This document shows, piece by piece, positions 21,262 to 31,702 of a stretch of 64,000 bases of DNA. This DNA comes from Halarcobacter sp. (lineage in GTDB: Bacteria; Campylobacterota; Campylobacteria; Campylobacterales; Arcobacteraceae): positions 868,001 through 932,000 of the forward strand of contig NZ_OY780939.1 of assembly GCF_963675975.1 (NCBI RefSeq). The letters run 5' to 3'. Numbering within the stretch: the stretch's first letter is position 1; each line of letters starts with the position of its first letter. The translations under genes were made by a program, and so were the position numbers. The notes beneath the pieces were generated by a model. That model had not been told where the DNA came from. It saw only the letters and a program-made list of their open reading frames with translations, and searched no databases.

Positions 21262-22200
21262 TTATATAAAAATTTCCCATATAAATCTATTTTTTATATC
21301 TTTTGATAAATTCTCTTTGACATTAATATTTGTATTTATCTTATAAATAGAGTTAAACCTTTGATATAGACCTAAGACTTTTGAGTGTTCAAACTCTAAT
21401 GATATTTGATTACAATATTTATTACACTGTTCTTGAACAAAGTACCTATTTTTATCTTCAAACAATCCTGCTATATCACAAGCTTTTGAGTTGGCTATTG
21501 TTATATTTGGGTAGTAAAAGTCAACTTGTAGCTTTGGTTTTTCTTGTAAAAACTCTAAGTTTAGATTGATATTTTCTATTGAGAATCTTCCAACACCTAA
21601 ACTTTTATAAAATTCCCTTGTTTGACTACACTCAAATTCACTTTGAGATAAAAGTTCACTTTGACTTACTAGTTGCTCATTTGTTAAATCACTTGGCTTT
21701 ATAGAATCAATAAAAGCACTTTTAATCACTTTTGAAAAGGTTAAACCAAGTACAGGTTTAAGATTTTTATACTCACTTGCTAATTGTAAAGTTCCAAAGT
21801 CATTTACAACAACTTCTGTATAGCTTTGGTTTAAAAGTTCAAAAACCTCTTTTATATCATTTAATTTAAACTCACTAATTGGTGGTAAACTAAATACAAA
21901 GTTATAGTGTCTTGAGTCACAAATCTTTTTTGCTTCTAATATATCTGTAAATGATGGAATAAGATGCTCACAAGAGCTATTCCCAAAGTAGATACCTTTT
22001 ATTATATTTTTTATATCTCTTTTATCAAAGAAAAGTTCTTCTTGGTATTTTAATATTTCATTTGCACAATTTAAATTAGTTTGATATTCAATTAAAGAGT
22101 TAGCATCTATTAAAAGTGAAGCTTTTGATAAAGATGAAGGAAGTAAATCATCTAAGTTTTTTAGTATTTTTAGGTTATTTGCTTTAATATACAGTTTCAT
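21262..22200 (-). CDS. U32-family protein, UbiV-like partner
   Basis: This 312-residue protein has the layout of the smaller U32 partner such as UbiV: IYFGNSSCEH early, a central alpha/beta barrel with VVNDFGTLQLASEY, and cysteines in SKACDIAG and EQCNKYCNQ in the last third that could bind a 4Fe-4S cluster. Known U32 pairs do oxygen-independent hydroxylation with prephenate as oxygen source, and other members (TrhP, RlhA) act on tRNA and rRNA. Its ATG overlaps the TGA of the upstream U32 gene (ATGA), so the two are coupled. Given the tRNA in the same operon, an RNA substrate is my inference. Confidence 0.68.
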   Translation of the reverse strand: MKLYIKANNLKILKNLDDLLPSSLSKASLLIDANSLIEYQTNLNCANEILKYQEELFFDKRDIKNIIKGIYFGNSSCEHLIPSFTDILEAKKICDSRHYNFVFSLPPISEFKLNDIKEVFELLNQSYTEVVVNDFGTLQLASEYKNLKPVLGLTFSKVIKSAFIDSIKPSDLTNEQLVSQSELLSQSEFECSQTREFYKSLGVGRFSIENINLNLEFLQEKPKLQVDFYYPNITIANSKACDIAGLFEDKNRYFVQEQCNKYCNQISLEFEHSKVLGLYQRFNSIYKINTNINVKENLSKDIKNRFIWEIFI

Positions 22201-23333
22201 AGTTGATATTGACTCTTTGTATAATCATAGGTTTCATTTTCATTTAGTTCATTTAGTAGCTTATATAATTCTCTTCCTCTTGATGGAACTTTATATGAGA
22301 CTATATTTTTATGCTTTTCAAAAATTCTAATAGTTGCTAAGATAGCTTTATTATTTAGTTTATGAAACGTTGGATAATAATCCATATCTTCAAATTTTAC
22401 AGCTTTTAGTTTATTGAGTATCTCTTTTGCTTTTGGAAACTCTAGGGATTTTAAAAGATTTAAAAGTCTGATAAAATCTTTTTTTGATTCTTTTAAGTAG
22501 TTAATATCATATCTATTTATCCTATCTAAACATTTGGCTATATTTTGAGAGTTAAATTCATATCTGTTTAATTCTATTTCATCAAGTAGTGAATTTAAAT
22601 CTAAAAAGTGCTTATTTAATAATTCTTTTTTCTCTTGGTCATTTAGTTTTCTATTTTTAACTATCTGTTTAAAACTAGCACTAGCACTTTGTATAGGCTT
22701 TTTATTTGTAAAAGCAAAGTTACACAAAGATCCAAAGCCAACAGAGTCATATCCATGCTCACTAAAGCAAAAGCTTTCTGAATATCGACAATTATCCCCA
22801 AATAAAAAGCATTCAAACTTATCGTCAGGAAAACTTGAAACGATAGTTTCTAAATCTTTTATTTGAATATCTCTTGGTAGTATAAATTTATATGGATTAA
22901 ACTGTCCTTTGAAAAATTTTACAGCATTTGTAGTATAAAGTCCAAAAAGATTTGATAATACTATTTTAGAGTAGTTTTGAGATTTTAAAAATTGTGCCAT
23001 TGTAATATTAGCAACGATAATTGCATCTACTTTTTTATAAAAAAGCTCATATATCTTTTTTGAATACTCTAGCATAGTAGTGTTTGAAGTAAAAGAGTTT
23101 AATGCTAAGTATATCGTTGCATTATTTTTATGTATAATATCTATGGTTTCATATATTTTATCTAGGTTAGTAAATTGTTCTTTTACTCTATATCTTCTAT
23201 TTAAAGAAGTTTGAGAGGAGTATTTCTCATAATACTCTTTAGGTAAGTATCCAAAATAAAATTGTTTTATACCTTGGTTTAGAAGTACAGTAATATTTGT
23301 ATCTTCATCTATACCAATAATTACTTTGTTCAA
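22197..23333 (-). CDS. U32-family protein, UbiU-like partner
   Basis: A 378-residue U32 protein. Residues 1-170 form the barrel N-terminus. The family cysteine cluster appears as ECFLFGDNCRYSESFCFSEHG, with another Cys in GSLCNF. The C-terminal 150 residues are helical and not typical of UbiU. It starts with TTG, 17 bases after the CCA of the CUA tRNA, with AAGGAAAT as ribosome site, so tRNA and protein share a transcript. It ends in TGA that overlaps the start of its partner; if UGA were read through here the extension would be only about nine residues. Peptidase activity, the historical U32 label, is unlikely. Confidence 0.7.
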   Translation of the reverse strand: MNKVIIGIDEDTNITVLLNQGIKQFYFGYLPKEYYEKYSSQTSLNRRYRVKEQFTNLDKIYETIDIIHKNNATIYLALNSFTSNTTMLEYSKKIYELFYKKVDAIIVANITMAQFLKSQNYSKIVLSNLFGLYTTNAVKFFKGQFNPYKFILPRDIQIKDLETIVSSFPDDKFECFLFGDNCRYSESFCFSEHGYDSVGFGSLCNFAFTNKKPIQSASASFKQIVKNRKLNDQEKKELLNKHFLDLNSLLDEIELNRYEFNSQNIAKCLDRINRYDINYLKESKKDFIRLLNLLKSLEFPKAKEILNKLKAVKFEDMDYYPTFHKLNNKAILATIRIFEKHKNIVSYKVPSRGRELYKLLNELNENETYDYTKSQYQL

Positions 23334-23349
23334 TATTATTTCCTTTATA

Positions 23350-23442
23350 TGGCGAGGGTAGAGGGAATCGAACCCACTCTGAGTATTGGAAGTACTCTCT
23401 CCAGGCTTAGAGTCTGGTGTGCTACCATTACACTATACCCAC
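23350..23442 (-). tRNA. Amber-decoding tRNA (anticodon CUA) with long variable arm
   Basis: Read on the minus strand, acceptor GTGGGTA pairs with TACCCTC (one mismatch). The D-arm is GTGT/GCAC, the anticodon stem CCAGA/CCTGG with loop CTCTAAG, giving anticodon CUA (plus-strand 23408-23410). The variable arm has a 5-bp stem GAGTA/TACTC, the T-loop is TTCGATT, discriminator G73 and encoded CCA. U33 and A37 are normal. CUA pairs with UAG. G73 is shared by bacterial Gln and Ser tRNAs; the long arm favours Ser, the GGGTA/TACCC acceptor core resembles Gln. It lies 56 bases after the recoded gene, which contains two in-frame TAG codons, and 17 bases before the U32 gene. Confidence 0.82.
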
Positions 23443-23498
23443 ATTATTATAAAAGGTAGTAATTATTTTAAACTGATAATGAAAAAGTTAGTTGCTTA

Positions 23499-26400
23499 TT
23501 AGTCAGAATATATTATAACTTGTTGTACATTACCTGATCTATTATCAGTAACAGTTGCTCTAATAGTCTAACCATTCTTATATCATCAATCATCAGGAGT
23601 GAAAGTGATACCTGAAAGTGTATTTCAAGTTCATGATTGAGTAGAAAAAGTACCTAAATATCATGAAGCTTCAGATAATGACCAACTTACATCAGAAAGA
23701 GCATCATCAGTAATAGTTAATCAAATATTAGTTAATTGAGCAGCACCAATCATATTTCATGTAGATGTTGGATTTGATAGTGTTGGATTTGTATTATTAC
23801 TACTTGTAAAAGTATTATTTACAGTTGAATTGATTGAATTTCAGTATACATCAGTTCAAGTAATAGTAAGAATATCTCAAGCAATTGGATGAGGCACATT
23901 TGTTTGTACATTATTTAATCTTAAATTTCCTGATACAATATTGTGAGAACCAATAGTTGTACCATTAGCATAAGATGGAGTATTTAAAGATGCTCAACTT
24001 AATGAATCATTTGCACTTAAATCTACAATTGAATATGTAGCATATTTAGTATCAACTGAAGTATTATATACAAATGAGCTTGGTGCAACTGTATCTAAAG
24101 CAATTGTAATACTTCCTGCATTTGAAGTATAACTTGCATTTACTCCTCTAACTTCTATTAATAGAGCAGAATTGTCAGCTTGTGCTGGTAATGTATAAGT
24201 TGTTACATTTCATACATCTACCCAAGAACCACCATTTACTCTAACTTCATATGAAGTTGCTCAAGCTAAACTTGTCCAAGAGATTGTTGGAGTATTATCA
24301 TTTGTTTTATTATCGAAATTCAATGGCCCAGTATCAGAAGATGCTACTAAGTCAACTCATGAAACAGTTGAACCAGAAATATCAACTCCTGTTAACTCAA
24401 TACTATCACTAATACTATTTGATATATTTCCAGAAGGATCTTTTACATAAATGTAAAGAGTTTTTGTACCTAAAGTACTATTTGAGAAAGTATATGTACT
24501 TGGTTTAGAAGATACCCAATTACTATCATTTACAGCAGGTGTAGTAGCGGATTCTGTAACAATCTATCCTGAAACAGTTTCTCAAGCATAGACTAAATTA
24601 GTTAAATTAACTGTTGTTGAACTAGTAGTAGCTGCATCATTATTGATATTAAATGATAGTGGTGCAGGTGGTGGAGTAGTATCAGTTACTACAACAGTAT
24701 TTGTAGTAACAGTTAAAGCATTAGATCTTTTAGTTTCATAATTAGAAGTATTAGCATTAAGAGCTTCTCCTTTAGTAACTACATAATAAGTAGTATTTAC
24801 AGTTAATCCACTAAAGTCTCCAGAAGAACTAGAACTTACTAAGTTAGTTAAACCTGCATCAGAATATAATTCAACAGTAACATTCTGAACTCCGTCCACA
24901 TCAGTGAAACTACCAATAGTAGTATTGATTGAAGTATCTGTTTTGGAATCTAAAGTTGGAGCACTAATCGTAGTAGAATTATCTGCTCAAATAGATGCAT
25001 TAGTATTTGTAGTAACAGTTAAAGCATTAGATCTTTTAGTTTCATAATTAGAAGTAGTAGTATTAAGAGCTTCTCCTTTAGTAACTACATAATAAGTAGT
25101 ACTTGCAGTTAATCCACTAAAGTCTCCAGAGGAACTAGAACTTACTAAGTTAGTTAAACCTGCATCAGAATATAATTCAACAGTAACATTCTGAACTCCG
25201 TCCTCATCAGTGAAACTACCAATAGTAGTATTGATTGAAGTATCTGTTTTGGAATCTAAAGTTGGAGCACTAATCGTAGTAGAATTATCTGCTCAAATAG
25301 ATGCATTAGTATTTGTAGTAACAGTTAAAGCATTAGATCTTTTAGTTTCATAATTAGAAGTAGTAGTATTAAGAGCTTCTCCTTTAGTAACTACATAATA
25401 AGTAGTACTTGCAGTTAATCCACTAAAGTCTCCAGAGGAACTAGAACTTACTAAGTTAGTTAAACCTGCATCAGAATATAATTCAACAGTAACATTCTGA
25501 ACTCCGTCCTCATCAGTGAAACTACCAATAGTAGTATTGATTGAAGTATCTGTTTTGGAATCTAAAGTTGGAGCACTAATCGTAGTAGAATTATCTGCTC
25601 AAATAGATGCATTTGAAACTACAATAGATACTGTTTGGGTTACTGTATGAGTTCCATCAGACACACTATACTGAAAACTATCTGCTCCTAAAAAATTTGT
25701 CGTTGGTGTGTAACTAAATGATCCATTTGAACTAACATTTAAAGTTCCATTTACTGGTTCTTTTACTTTTGCATAAATTAAATTTTCACTATCTTTATCT
25801 GTTGCAGTTAAGCTACCATTATAAGTTTGGTTTTGTTCTACAGAAAATGATTTAAATGTGGGAATAGGTTTTGATGTGATTCTTTTATTAAATTCTTCTG
25901 GGTTGATTTTTTTTGCTATAATCTCAGATGTATAAATTTGTTCTTCGAATTTATCTCTCATTTTTAAACTTCTATTTGCTATATTTTCTTGATATGCTAA
26001 AGTTACCATCATATTTTTACTTGTATTTCGTGTTGCTGTTAATATTGGAGAGAAAGTACCATTTGAAAAATTTGAGAATCCTGCAAATTTATAATTTATT
26101 CCAGCCCTAATACTATAATTATCATCATCATGTTCTATTGAATCATATTTCAATTCTAGTTTTAAATCATCAATAGGATAGTAAGCTGAACTAACTGAAT
26201 AATCAGAGATGGTTTTACTATATGCTTTTGCATTTTGATAAGAACCTAATAAATCAACAGAACCCAAAGTACCTATATCTTTTTTTAAAGCACCCTCTAC
26301 ATACCATATTTTTGTTGTTGTATCTGCATCACCTGCATTAGTTAACTTATTTGCTAAATAACCAAATTCAAAGTTAAAAGATTTATCATTACCATAACCA

Positions 26401-26771
26401 AATGCGGTACCTAAAGTTACTTGTCTAATATCAGTTAAACTTCAATAAATAGTCTCTTCTTTATTTAAATAACCTAATCCAAGTTTTGTATAGAACATAT
26501 TATTTATATCTATTCTTTGTACTAAACCAGCTTTTTTGTAATCATTACCTTTTTCTATTCTAAAGTCAGTATAGTCAGAATCATATTTAAATCACATACC
26601 ATTATATGATGTATCATCTACTTTTTCACCTGCACCATAAAAAGAAATATTATCTAAGAAAGATTTTTCTAAATTTTTTTTACTAATTAAGTTTTTATCA
26701 TTTGTTGCATTTACATTATTTGCTAAAAGCATTATTGTAACAATTGAAAGTGGTAATTTTCAGTATTTCAT
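23499..26771 (-). CDS. Recoded surface protein: inverse-autotransporter-like barrel plus Ig-like repeats, 21 in-frame TGA and 2 TAG
   Basis: From ATG 26771 (preceded by GGAGAAGAA) one frame runs 1,090 codons to a double TAA at 23501. It includes TGA codons 4, 60, 110, 391, 493, 595, 730, 805, 837, 854, 926, 965, 972, 977, 1005, 1017, 1037, 1047, 1049, 1062 and 1063, and TAG codons 736 and 1068. There are no frameshifts and no inner TAA. Reading TGA as Gly gives natural text such as SLAGATSYEV, ITGTDVYGNS and TFTPDDGGYKNG; Trp is TGG at its own sites. Domains: signal peptide, beta-barrel (about 35-300), cadherin-like domain (300-385), 102-residue repeats (391-700), then fibronectin/Ig-like domains. 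It is probably an outer-membrane adhesin. Standard decoding yields a tripeptide from the first ATG. Confidence 0.88.
24697..25612 (-). repeat. Three tandem 306-bp repeats in the recoded adhesin gene
   Basis: Near-identical 306-bp units (102 codons) begin at 24697, 25003 and 25309 on the plus strand. Three in-frame TGA codons recur at the same repeat position (24987, 25293, 25599). The period is a multiple of three, so the frame is kept. Duplication of a unit that already contained TGA means the stop was tolerated when the array expanded. Confidence 0.9.
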
Positions 26772-26789: not shown

Positions 26790-26832
26790 ACCCAATTATA
26801 AAAAAAGAGTATCTCTTCTTTTATAATTGGGT
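26790..26832 (-). promoter_or_regulatory. 20-bp hairpin in the leader of the recoded gene
   Basis: ACCCAATTATAAAA (26790-26803) is perfectly complementary to 26819-26832. Inside the loop AAGAG pairs with CTCTT around a TAT turn, with a single A-C mismatch between the two stems. The whole forms an almost continuous 20-bp hairpin whose base lies 18 bases before the ATG, next to the GGAG ribosome site. It could be an attenuator, an RNA-binding-protein site (a dsRBD-like gene lies nearby) or an upstream terminator. Confidence 0.7.
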
Positions 26833-27175
26833 AAAACAATAAATATTTTCATCAGAGCATATAAGCAATTACATAAAATCAGAAGATTTATCTTTTATTT
26901 ACCTCAATTATAAAACTTTTTTGCCCTTAGTAACCTGGTATCCCTCCAAGTATTTATCACAAATAGTTTATAACAATAAAAGTCTGTCTTTTAAACCGTT
27001 TTATTCTTTTTTTGATTTTAACATTTTTGCTAAAGGGTAAGTTTAGCTTACTTTATAAAATCATATATGGTGATTATATTATTTATTATTAAAAATATGA
27101 AATTATTATATTAACCTTAATCTAAAAATTTACTTAAAATATTTATAATTAAAACTTTTTTTTATTATTTTTTTG
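26833..27175. other. Divergent intergenic region of the recoding module
   Basis: No coding frame is visible. The region must hold the promoter of the recoded gene on the minus strand. A GC-richer patch, TTGCCCTTAGTAACCTGG near 26931-26948 and TATCCCTCC after it, stands out from the AT-rich surroundings and could be part of a structured leader, but it matches no riboswitch I can name with confidence. Confidence 0.35.
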
Positions 27176-27196: not shown

Positions 27197-27287
27197 GCGG
27201 ATGTGACATAATGGCTGTGTGCTGGGCTTCAACCCCAGATTGGACTCCAATCCAGTTACGCGGGTTCGATTCCCGTCGTCCGCTCCA
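27197..27287 (+). tRNA. Opal-decoding tRNA (anticodon UCA) with glycine-like acceptor and long variable arm
   Basis: Acceptor GCGGATG pairs with CGTCCGC. The D-arm is ACAT/GTGT, anticodon stem CTGGG/CCCAG and loop CTTCAAC, giving anticodon UCA at 27229-27231. A 21-base variable region can form ATTGGA/TCCAGT, and T-stem GCGGG/CCCGT carries loop TTCGATT. U73 and CCA end the tRNA. G1-C72, C2-G71, G3-C70 and U73 are the bacterial tRNA-Gly acceptor identity. It is not a typical selC: acceptor plus T-stem is 7+5, the D-stem is 4 bp with a normal GG-containing loop, and the discriminator is not G. It faces the recoded gene with 21 TGA codons and precedes a dsRBD-like gene by 14 bases. Confidence 0.85.
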
Positions 27288-27301: not shown

Positions 27302-27988
27302 GTGGCAAAACATATTTATCATCTGCCTTTACAAGATACATTAAAGTTTTTTAAAGAGAATAAAACATTTATAAATGAGGGATTGAATAATACTGCTATA
27401 TTTGAATATAGGAAGCTATATGGCAGAACTTTTTATGAACTGCAAATAAAAGAATTTATTGAGTTTTTTAAAATAGACAAAGATTTATCTTATGCTTTAA
27501 AAACAATCAACTATTTTAAATCTGAAAACTTTTTAAATAATATATACACTTTCTTAAATATAGATACAAGAAATAGTAGTAAGTCTATTCCAAATAGAGA
27601 TTTTTTATACACTATGATTTATATATTTAATGACAAAAATAAGGAGCTTTGTAATAAATTTTTTCACAAAGTTTTTTTACATTTTTTTACAACACTTAAT
27701 CAAAATACGAATACACAGATAGACTATATAGACTTATCAAAAACTTTAGCAAAAAATAGAAAGATTGTCTTAAAAGATTCATTCGGAGAAAAAGAAGATA
27801 ATTCTTATTTTAAAATATTTTTAAATGATAAAATCGAAGTTGAACATTATGGAAAGTCTATAAAAACACTACGAAAAAAGGCTTACAAACAACTTTTTTA
27901 TAAGCTTTTAGATGAAGATATTATAAATAATGAAAATATAAAAGCTGTTGAAGCTAGAGAAAACTTACTCTTATATAAAGATATTTAA
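27302..27988 (+). CDS. Putative dsRNA-binding protein co-transcribed with the UCA tRNA
   Basis: The 228-residue protein has a C-terminal stretch (about residues 145-210) shaped like a double-stranded-RNA-binding domain: a helix, the strand YFKIFLNDKIEVEHYGKS, then basic KTLRKKAYKQLFYKLL. The N-terminal 140 residues are helical and unrecognised; no RNase III signature is present. It starts with GTG (after TAAGGA), 14 bases behind the tRNA CCA, so tRNA and protein share a transcript. I infer that it binds or processes the atypical tRNA or the leader hairpin of the recoded gene. The dsRBD assignment is moderate. Confidence 0.62.
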   Translation: MAKHIYHLPLQDTLKFFKENKTFINEGLNNTAIFEYRKLYGRTFYELQIKEFIEFFKIDKDLSYALKTINYFKSENFLNNIYTFLNIDTRNSSKSIPNRDFLYTMIYIFNDKNKELCNKFFHKVFLHFFTTLNQNTNTQIDYIDLSKTLAKNRKIVLKDSFGEKEDNSYFKIFLNDKIEVEHYGKSIKTLRKKAYKQLFYKLLDEDIINNENIKAVEARENLLLYKDI

Positions 27989-30499: not shown

Positions 30500-31702
30500 A
30501 TGTTTATTACCCCTGTAATCCCAGAGACAAATGAAATAAAAATAGATAACAACCTTTTAAAAAAAGCTGAAACTGTTGTTGTTGAAAGTGCAAAATTAAC
30601 AGGTGGACACAATATTCATTTTATTAGTGCTTTAAAAGAGTTACTTAGAATTACAAATAGTTATTACTCAAATAGAATTGAATCTGAAGGTACCCATCCT
30701 ATTGATATTGAAAGAGCGATGAAAAAAGATTTCTCAAGTGACATTAAAGAAAAAAATTTACAACAATTGTCTTTAATTCATATTGAAGTACAAAAATATC
30801 TTGAAAAAAAAGCTTTAGAAGATAGTGAAGATAAACTATTCTCAAAAAATACTATTCTTAATATCCATGAAAAGTTCTATTCAAAAGATGAAATGAAGCA
30901 TACTCTTGACATAAAACATGGAGATTTATCGGTTTCAATGGTGCCAGGAGAGCTCAGAGATGGACCTGTTAAAATAGGTTTACATATCCCACCAGCAGAT
31001 GACGAATTAAATTCTTGTTTTAACGAATTTGAAACTTTATATAATCAATGTATACCAAGTACTAAAACAATAAAATTAATTAATGCATTATGCTCACATC
31101 ATAGATTAGTGTATATACATCCCTTTTTTGATGGTAATGGAAGGATTTCTAGATTATATTTAGATTACCTATTTCAAAGAATAAATTTAGATGGTTATGG
31201 ACTATGGAATTTATCAAGAGGTTTAGCAAGAAATATAGATGGATACCAAGATGCCTTATCAAAAGCTGATGAACCATATAGAGGTGGATATAATGATGGC
31301 AGAGGAAATTTATCATTAAAAGGTCTTGCCTATTTTTTAGAGTTTATGTTAGATATTGCATTAGATCAAATTAGTTATATGTCAAGTGTGATTAGAATTG
31401 ACCAAATTTCATCAAGAATATCAAATTATGTAAAGTTCGCAGAGCAGAATATGTATTTTAATATAAAACCTCTACCAAAACATTCAAATATAATATTCCA
31501 AACCCTTCTAGTTCAAGGAGAAATACCTAGAAATAGTGTTAAAGATATATTGGGAGTTAGTAAACCAACGGCAATAAAAATAGTAAGAGAATTAGAAGAG
31601 AGAGGATATTTGCAATCTAGTGAACCTTCAAGCCCTATTAGGATTAAATTAAATTCACATTTTGCAGCAGAGATTATCCCTGAACTATTCCCTAAAGCTT
31701 AA
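30500..31702 (+). CDS. Fic-domain protein with C-terminal winged helix
   Basis: This 400-residue protein carries the Fic active-site motif HPFFDGNGRISR near residue 213. Fic enzymes transfer AMP or related groups to target proteins. An N-terminal segment SNRIESEG fits the inhibitory helix of class II Fic proteins, with Ser in place of the usual Gly/Asn after the Glu. The C-terminus (GVSKPTAIKIVRELEERGYLQ) is a winged helix, so it may bind DNA and regulate itself through the AGGTAAAA repeats upstream. No separate antitoxin gene is seen, in line with an intramolecular inhibitor. Confidence 0.87.
   Translation: MFITPVIPETNEIKIDNNLLKKAETVVVESAKLTGGHNIHFISALKELLRITNSYYSNRIESEGTHPIDIERAMKKDFSSDIKEKNLQQLSLIHIEVQKYLEKKALEDSEDKLFSKNTILNIHEKFYSKDEMKHTLDIKHGDLSVSMVPGELRDGPVKIGLHIPPADDELNSCFNEFETLYNQCIPSTKTIKLINALCSHHRLVYIHPFFDGNGRISRLYLDYLFQRINLDGYGLWNLSRGLARNIDGYQDALSKADEPYRGGYNDGRGNLSLKGLAYFLEFMLDIALDQISYMSSVIRIDQISSRISNYVKFAEQNMYFNIKPLPKHSNIIFQTLLVQGEIPRNSVKDILGVSKPTAIKIVRELEERGYLQSSEPSSPIRIKLNSHFAAEIIPELFPKA

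Follow-up and report, generated by a model that had tools for sequence, protein, structure and literature searches.

In-frame UGA codons of a Halarcobacter surface-protein gene are probably read as glycine by a dedicated tRNA

The locus and its UGA-containing gene

The subject of this report is a 64,000-nt stretch of a Halarcobacter sp. genome (hereafter the window; positions 868001-932000 of a single-contig 3.27 Mb genome), in which a surface-protein gene keeps one frame open through 21 UGA and 2 UAG codons. A preliminary description of this DNA had proposed that UGA is recoded to glycine in this particular gene of a bacterium that otherwise uses the standard code. The flanking tRNAs, termed tRNA(UCA) and tRNA*, the leader RNA and the genes here called X, U32a and U32b are additions to that description. 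The gene itself and its unusual codons lie as follows.

23502-26771, minus strand: UGA/UAG-containing surface-protein gene of 1,090 codons, with 21 UGA and 2 UAG
24564-24566, minus strand: UAG, codon 736 of this gene (by codon count)
23568-23570, minus strand: UAG, codon 1068 of this gene (by codon count)
23496-23501, minus strand: double TAA stop of this gene (read from the sequence)

Exact codon counts agree with the preliminary description, which had given no strand: on the minus strand the frame opens with an ATG at 26771, its last sense codon ends at 23502 and TAA TAA follows at 23501-23496. Besides 21 TGA and 2 TAG codons it holds 5 TGG codons, where at least five had been announced, 0 Cys codons and, again as announced, 0 TAA ahead of the double stop. 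In 2,000 mononucleotide shuffles of the gene, read in three frames, the longest TAA-free run had a median of 114 and a maximum of 262 codons, and the runner-up among TAA-free frames of the window with at least eight other stops measures 331 codons. The first UGA comes early, at codon 4. The product has Ig-like/cadherin-like domains, and its N-terminal region shares 44-46% identity with stop-free homologues from the genus; its plasmid homologues, which were left out of the residue counts below, mainly match the Big_9 region (best 20 of 32 listed).

In other genes of the window, UGA still serves as a stop. TGA ends 5 of the 41 open reading frames (ORFs) of at least 150 aa in the window (largely non-overlapping), or 4 of 40 once a fragment of the UGA gene is set aside, which bears out the earlier remark that other genes here end in TGA. 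All four of these TGA-ending genes have a second stop 0-8 codons further on.

The residue at UGA and the tRNA with anticodon UCA

Five UGA-containing proteins, with UGA written as X, were aligned to homologue loci from 16 genomes. Labels such as G036 and G100 denote relatives' genomes, G036 being Sulfurospirillum sp. MAG-6, and C denotes a contig. Protein P0010 had no homologue match and P0011 had one, and a single homologue genome, G113, has TGA within its match. Residues were counted either with one vote per genome, dropping gaps, stops and X, or over every locus, keeping gaps and stops.

With one vote per genome, glycine fills 32 of the 115 cells at UGA columns, followed by N (12), D (11), V (11), S (9), A (9) and T (4), with W and C at 0. 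For comparison, glycine fills 240 of 6,286 cells where the codon is a sense codon other than Gly, and 174 of 305 where it is GGN; 0 of 5,000 random draws gave as much glycine as the UGA cells (top draw 10.5%). Over every locus, glycine makes up 33.5% of 230 UGA-column cells, and Trp 79% of cells at TGG columns. Aligning homologues with UGA as X had been suggested in the preliminary description; the outcome is glycine far above background, with Trp or Cys in none of the 115 cells. Resolved by column and pooled over five genes, 21 UGA columns have at least three aligned genomes; glycine holds the majority in 5 of these and is the sole or joint commonest residue in 12. The best columns are Halarcobacter codon 60 (4/4) and codons 98 (21/22), 326 (8/8) and 359 (8/8) of gene 2 of G103; the G103 paralogues, compared by eye as translations, carry a GGN-encoded glycine opposite UGA at three sites. 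To this extent the statement that UGA sits at glycine positions holds, while some of the sites then offered as examples could not be checked by alignment.

A second argument for glycine comes from composition: across eight UGA genes the glycine content is low without UGA (1.1-5.5%) and ordinary once UGA is counted as glycine (4.0-7.4%). Both arguments are drawn from sequence comparison, and it is likely that UGA is read as glycine in these genes. The two UAG codons probably need an explanation of their own. Codon 736 has six aligned cells over all loci (S twice, and I, N, D and V), or four with one vote per genome, none of them glycine, and codon 1068 has no aligned cells in the homologue alignment.

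A candidate for the decoding tRNA lies upstream of the UGA gene, on the opposite strand.

27197-27287, plus strand: tRNA(UCA), a glycine-type tRNA with anticodon UCA and the proposed UGA-reading tRNA-Gly (called by ARAGORN as 'tRNA-SeC'; covariation)

The closeness of the locus to a 'selC' was at first thought to be chance; that gene is tRNA(UCA), the key tRNA. A cloverleaf with a 7/5 acceptor/T stem, a 5-bp variable arm and a 4-bp D stem fits eight full sequences from seven genomes. In these eight sequences 96.2% of cells are paired and 8 of 26 pairs show double changes, and on four of five covariation measures 0 of 500 shuffles scored as high; the Halarcobacter copy fits its covariance model fully. 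Among the base features, U73 and G1:C72 are present in 8/8 and C2:G71 in 7/8, which together form the glycine identity set from work on the E. coli glycyl-tRNA synthetase (GlyRS). The 3′-terminal 29 nt match tRNA-Gly genes from this order: ARAGORN calls tRNA-Gly at 25 of the 26 partial-match loci scanned, and the lone exception, L031, is cut there by the contig end. The lower matches of the covariance model in 397 genomes of the phylum are eight tRNA-Gly(ccc), one tRNA-Ser and two tRNA*.

The ARAGORN label invites the reading of tRNA(UCA) as a selenocysteine (Sec) tRNA, with UGA encoding Sec. Epsilonproteobacterial tRNA-Sec also has a 7/5 acceptor/T stem, according to an excerpt of PMC4607533, so that stem length alone does not decide between Sec and Gly. 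Yet a separate tRNA, with G73 and longer arms, adjoins SelA elsewhere in the Halarcobacter genome, and likewise in G036, whereas tRNA(UCA) has U73, the 4-bp D stem and the 5-bp variable arm; G73 is held essential for tRNA-Sec in the portion of PMC5330540 consulted. On the tRNA-Sec model RF01852 (cut-off 47), the Halarcobacter tRNA beside SelA scores 48.2 bits against 42.7 for tRNA(UCA). Judged by these features, the D arm, the variable arm, base 73 and location set tRNA(UCA) apart from tRNA-Sec. SelA was found in Halarcobacter and G036 and not in the other six of the eight tRNA(UCA) carrier genomes, whose completeness is not stated.

Partner genes, leader RNA and distribution

Immediately behind tRNA(UCA) follows a gene of its own kind.

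27302-27988, plus strand: gene X, 14 nt after tRNA(UCA), with a predicted RNase III endonuclease fold and a double-stranded RNA-binding domain (dsRBD; structure prediction)

At all eight loci with a readable 3′ side, X lies 3′ of tRNA(UCA) on the same strand, 10 to ~850 nt away, and its frame is open in Halarcobacter, G036-C23, G036-C7 and G105 (with an earlier end in G105). The predicted structure (pLDDT 77.9) has 14 Foldseek matches at E<=0.001, all of them RNase III chains or one mitoribosomal protein, which we take to be mL44, with a best E of 1.9e-4; both domains match in order, and the VIA Z reaches 11.8, a level that helical models may often attain. Read off the sequence alignment against the RNase III signature, two of the four catalytic acids appear as Lys and Lys/Arg (6/6 rows) and a third as Tyr; by these residues, X is probably catalytically dead and would bind RNA. 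Pfam returned no match for four X proteins, even at E 10; an NCBIfam search gave nothing, the family has no sequence match in PDB, and Halarcobacter X has no match in phage or plasmid collections. As far as sequence comparison goes, X is a new protein family. It was found in 5 of the 397 phylum genomes, two of the matches being doubtful and one a fragment; this search scored at most seven candidates per genome, and its absences are soft. The doubtful weak matches, in G058 and G384, have no tRNA(UCA) nearby, and the G335 match is a frame-broken fragment with no tRNA in 17 kb. In G058 (L087 7980-10300, C14) a long CRISPR-like repeat array lies near the weak 38-residue X match, which may be chance.

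On the other side of the UGA gene, downstream and on its strand, lies the second tRNA with two genes behind it.

23350-23442, minus strand: tRNA*, with anticodon CUA, G73 and a long variable arm (ARAGORN label 'tRNA-Pyl')
22197-23333, minus strand: U32a, a U32-family gene directly after tRNA* (family match)
21262-22200, minus strand: U32b, overlapping the end of U32a (no Pfam family match; its G393 counterpart is a weak U32 match)

tRNA* scores 53.9 bits on the tRNA(UCA) model, against 42.3 for the tRNA-Leu of the window, and its variable arm is of the same kind, with a loop ending in CCAA in 6/8 tRNA(UCA) and 3/3 tRNA*. An interpretation of its second hairpin as the anticodon arm of a tRNA-Gly(UCC) was dropped, as comparison with tRNA(UCA) shows a variable arm there. 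Relatives of tRNA* occur in G036 (two copies, 81% identical) and once more in G393, all with CCG at the anticodon place, which suggests that tRNA* is not a tRNA-Pyl. Among the three genomes with tRNA*, the CUA anticodon is confined to Halarcobacter and UAG to the Halarcobacter UGA gene. This shared restriction suggests that anticodon and codons belong together, with tRNA* as the probable reader of the two UAG codons.

U32a and U32b stand directly after tRNA* in Halarcobacter and in G393, and ~1.6 and ~5.2 kb off in the G036 duplicates. RNA hydroxylases are among the U32 proteins; the NCBIfam matches to UbiU and TrhP are far below cut-off, and U32a and U32b may be tRNA-modifying enzymes tied to tRNA*. 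By eye, the genes after tRNA* in G036-C23 look HipB/HipA-like.

Upstream of the UGA gene, its mRNA would carry two structured elements.

26906-26973, minus strand: conserved structured leader RNA upstream of the UGA gene (hairpin with AGGGAUA loop, internal loop and outer stem)
26792-26830, minus strand: strong hairpin just before the start codon (z-score -5.8)

The 68-nt leader, with one shared structure, precedes the UGA genes of Halarcobacter, G101 and G105 and both of those in G103. A model built from these five sequences and searched in 18 genomes gave six strong matches, all upstream of UGA-containing genes; the new one, in G104 (E 3.4e-15), stands before a truncated gene whose codon 4 is UGA. 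Six further matches have E 0.01 or worse. The leader is also found in G393, just upstream of its UGA gene, and the two new leaders (G104 and G393) score 60.7 and 56.1 bits. Over all seven, 95.6% of cells are paired and 9 of 17 pairs show changes on both sides; 0 of 500 shuffles scored as high on any of five measures, with a model built from five of the seven sequences. Rfam searched at E up to 1 in L001, L017 and L018 returned tRNAs alone and no known family for the leader there.

Of 100 genomes including Halarcobacter, only Halarcobacter and G036 carry full-length tRNA(UCA), and the same holds for tRNA* and for U32a; U32a recurs beside tRNA* with U32b in G393. A pattern scan for tRNA(UCA) in a collection of 84,980 species returned eight stretches, from Sulfurospirillum sp. 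MAG-6 (two), Campylobacteraceae (two), Sulfurimonas, Sulfurovaceae, Nitratifractor and Sulfurovum, all of which we take to be members of the phylum Campylobacterota; the pattern was not found in viral contigs. In the 397 phylum genomes, the tRNA(UCA) model had full-strength matches only in Halarcobacter and in G283, apparently the same Nitratifractor assembly as G104; at most 10 candidates per genome were scored, and absences here too are soft. Because these scans match few genomes, the kit is rare and scattered among Campylobacterota.

Ten tRNA(UCA) loci were compared: Halarcobacter, G036 C23 and C7, G100, G101, G102, G103, G104/G283-C14, G105 and G283-C7. At six of them a gene that carries in-frame UGA and apparently encodes a secreted or surface protein lies within 2.5 kb of the tRNA, with 21 UGA in Halarcobacter, 10 in gene A of G036-C23, 8 in G101, 12 and 20 in the two G103 genes, 2 in G105 and 1 in the truncated gene of G104. 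The first UGA is codon 4 in Halarcobacter and G104, codon 6 in G036 gene A, codon 15 in both G103 genes, codon 19 in G393, codon 58 in G101 and codon 61 in G105. The finder used for recoded ORFs in relatives ends frames at TAA or TAG and applies a codon-usage filter, so that absence of TAA there is by construction. Two frames (L049 120-815 and L071 573-3728) were not counted as UGA genes, since their UGA comes only towards the end or, if early, inside a long frame of the ordinary kind.

The second UGA gene of G036, gene B, contains 22 UGA and has a pilin-like start, a FecR domain and no start codon in view; one copy is broken, two minus-strand pieces in L017 being counted as that one copy, and L076 repeats L018. 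The UGA-gene island of G036 is duplicated (L017 C23, L018 C2), with apparent insertion sequences between. Identity of G103 gene 2 to stop-free proteins from the order of Halarcobacter reaches 49%. A small contig of G393 (L161, C41, 1-3086) carries the leader RNA, a 5-UGA gene, a tRNA*(CCG), U32a and U32b; its UGA gene shows, by eye, an EF-hand-like DYNHNxIIDxR stretch and has no significant Pfam match. G071 holds a tRNA(UCA) relic with a 37-nt match (L050 5424-5493, 25 bits) that overlaps a normal ORF, with no UGA-rich gene in the surrounding 11 kb and no X match in the genome. The second tRNA(UCA) copy of G283, on C7, is degraded (L160 33-124), its D arm and 3′ end being altered, and is not called by ARAGORN.

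Close to the island in Halarcobacter, the window also holds a Fic/DOC family gene (30500-31702, plus strand).

Alternative readings, proposed mechanism and known systems

The glycine bias, the adjoining UCA tRNA, the TGA stops elsewhere in the window and the relatives with the same tRNA near UGA genes all support gene-specific reading of UGA as glycine in a standard-code bacterium, as the preliminary description had put it. More precisely, a dedicated tRNA-Gly(UCA) likely decodes UGA as glycine in a few surface genes, whether or not X and the leader select them.

Several observations weigh against this reading. Many UGA columns fall in fast-evolving repeats where residues are mixed (codons 391, 493, 595 and 1005-1049); the first three, which the preliminary description had singled out for peptide detection, have 0, 1 and 0 glycine cells in the homologue alignment. 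At four of the ten tRNA(UCA) loci no UGA gene was seen, these being G036-C7 and G100, in both of which the tRNA is at a contig edge, and G102 and G283-C7, where the flanks are visible. Conversely, tRNA(UCA) was not found in G393, where only 10 candidates were scored, despite its UGA gene, leader and tRNA*, and the leader model has no match in G036. Duplicate gene copies in G036 differ too little for purifying selection to be read from them (6 nonsynonymous to 4 synonymous changes, and 6 to 5). As regards the RNAs, individual leaders are only modestly more stable than their shuffles (z -0.9 to -3.9), the fifth covariation measure of tRNA(UCA), further pair types, is no better than shuffles, and energy folding of the Halarcobacter tRNA(UCA) alone yields no cloverleaf, so that its fold rests on Rfam and covariation. 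In G036 the tRNA-Sec model scores the tRNA beside SelA (42.2 bits) below tRNA(UCA) (43.8), which is why this score alone is not decisive. Finally, X is broken or truncated in G101, G102, G103, G104 and the G036-C2 copy, and by these frames the island system is decaying in part of its range.

The alternative that survives best shares the core of the preferred reading: glycine recoding would be real and unspecific, a weak opal suppressor acting on all UGA, with X and the leader as unrelated neighbours. The second stop within 0-8 codons of all four TGA-ending window genes speaks for it, since read-through would then cost little. Yet X follows tRNA(UCA) on the same strand at all eight loci where the 3′ side is readable, and each of the six strong leader matches in 18 genomes precedes a UGA-containing gene. 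We consider this alternative rather unlikely, though one to be taken seriously.

That the UGA genes are decaying pseudogenes, and the tRNAs relics that no longer give full-length protein, is improbable. It draws on the broken X frames, on the degenerate tRNA(UCA) in G071 and the degraded copy in G283-C7, and on one G036 gene A copy that, as read from the sequence, is cut by an insertion. In yeasts, pseudogenes mimic a stop-to-Trp change, as an excerpt of PMC8629427 describes. The glycine bias at UGA columns, as read from the alignments, is not that pattern: decay of TGG by G-to-A change would leave Trp opposite UGA. Moreover, the Halarcobacter frame has been kept over 1,090 codons with 0 TAA, similar frames recur in other genomes, and in Halarcobacter the X frame is open and tRNA(UCA) fits its model fully.

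It is very improbable that the genes were imported from Absconditabacteria/Gracilibacteria, where UGA means glycine genome-wide (code 25), and remain untranslated in the new host. The codon meaning is the same in those groups (PMC13092985, in part), and the pilin/FecR-like gene of G036 had prompted the idea of such horizontal transfer. This was dropped, as homologues, tRNA body and carriers are those of Campylobacterota: the Halarcobacter N-terminal region and G103 gene 2 resemble stop-free proteins of the same genus and order, the 3′ half of tRNA(UCA) matches tRNA-Gly of this order, and all eight tRNA(UCA) stretches are titled as Campylobacterota, with no code-25 genome among them.

UGA to Trp is the commonest bacterial reassignment, which lends some prior weight to a reading of UGA as Trp by a near-cognate tRNA-Trp or by tRNA(UCA). 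However, these genes also contain TGG, which aligns to Trp in most cells, and UGA aligns to Trp in none of 115, which makes this reading scarcely credible. As to Sec, the features that set tRNA(UCA) apart from tRNA-Sec, the failure to find SelA in most carriers searched and the implausibility of that many Sec residues in structural surface domains make it extremely improbable.

For the preferred reading, decoding by tRNA-Gly(UCA), the following mechanism can be proposed. tRNA(UCA) would be charged with glycine by the host glycyl-tRNA synthetase and would decode UGA as glycine in a few genes for secreted or surface proteins; X, as a probably dead RNase III-fold RNA-binding protein, and the leader may favour decoding on these mRNAs. 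Ordinary UGA stops could be spared through selection by X and the leader, through low or timed expression, or because read-through is cheap. As UGA often comes early, no useful product would be made without the tRNA, so that the surface protein would be all-or-none and the arrangement could act as a lock on it. Tentatively, and with a little less than even confidence, the whole may be described as a genetic-code island, in which chosen surface genes would have a code of their own through special tRNAs whose variable arms are alike in kind, together with a dead RNase III-fold protein and a structured mRNA leader. The second tRNA would read UAG here and perhaps CGG in relatives, possibly after modification by the U32 proteins, the early stops would serve as a translational lock, and a gene transferred alone would be silent.

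Among known systems, code 25 (Absconditabacteria/SR1 and Gracilibacteria) shares the meaning of UGA, glycine, which here rests on alignment, and code-25 bacteria likewise have a tRNA-Gly with anticodon UCA. There, however, the change is genome-wide and UGA is no stop, whereas here UGA ends 4 of 40 window ORFs, its use as a sense codon is known from only a few surface genes, and the tRNA comes with partner genes and a 5-bp variable arm. Selenocysteine insertion (SelA, SelB, SelC and SECIS) is similar in its gene-specific recoding of UGA, its dedicated UCA tRNA and its structured mRNA element; the differences are that the amino acid here would be canonical glycine, that the tRNA is without tRNA-Sec features and SelA was not found in 6/8 carriers, that the RNA, a 5′ leader, would serve many UGA codons, and that the partner is RNase III-like and not an EF-Tu-like SelB. 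Classical opal suppressor tRNAs also place the anticodon UCA on an ordinary tRNA body, yet those are laboratory or sporadic mutants, whereas tRNA(UCA) is kept across several genera with target genes, a partner gene and a leader. In crAss-like phages, suppressor tRNAs are carried along with recoded genes; phage stop-codon reassignments are UAG-to-Gln or UGA-to-Trp, whereas the present islands lie on bacterial contigs and Halarcobacter X is without a match in phage or plasmid collections. X itself is like RNase III and mitoribosomal mL44 in its predicted endonuclease fold and dsRBD, and unlike them in having no Pfam or PDB sequence match, in apparently carrying Lys, Lys/Arg and Tyr in place of the catalytic acids and in being encoded beside a tRNA.

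Among gene-specific schemes, the well-known ones bring in selenocysteine or pyrrolysine. According to an excerpt of PMC13092985, suppressor tRNAs are present in 0.3% of the genomes analysed there, in standard-code bacteria, and have been read as countering nonsense mutations; among the matches listed from open-access full texts, with subscription literature mostly outside, no description of gene-specific UGA-to-Gly recoding or of such an island was found. The UGA gene beside its glycine-type tRNA, with parts of the kit recurring in relatives, suggests a natural system that resets the code for selected genes. If true, UGA would mean two things within one cell, an ordinary amino acid being one of the two, and the split would run by gene and not by compartment or organism. 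Such a system would be a natural, portable one for orthogonal translation and a possible starting stage for genome-wide code changes such as code 25, and it could explain why such genes are missed or annotated as pseudogenes.

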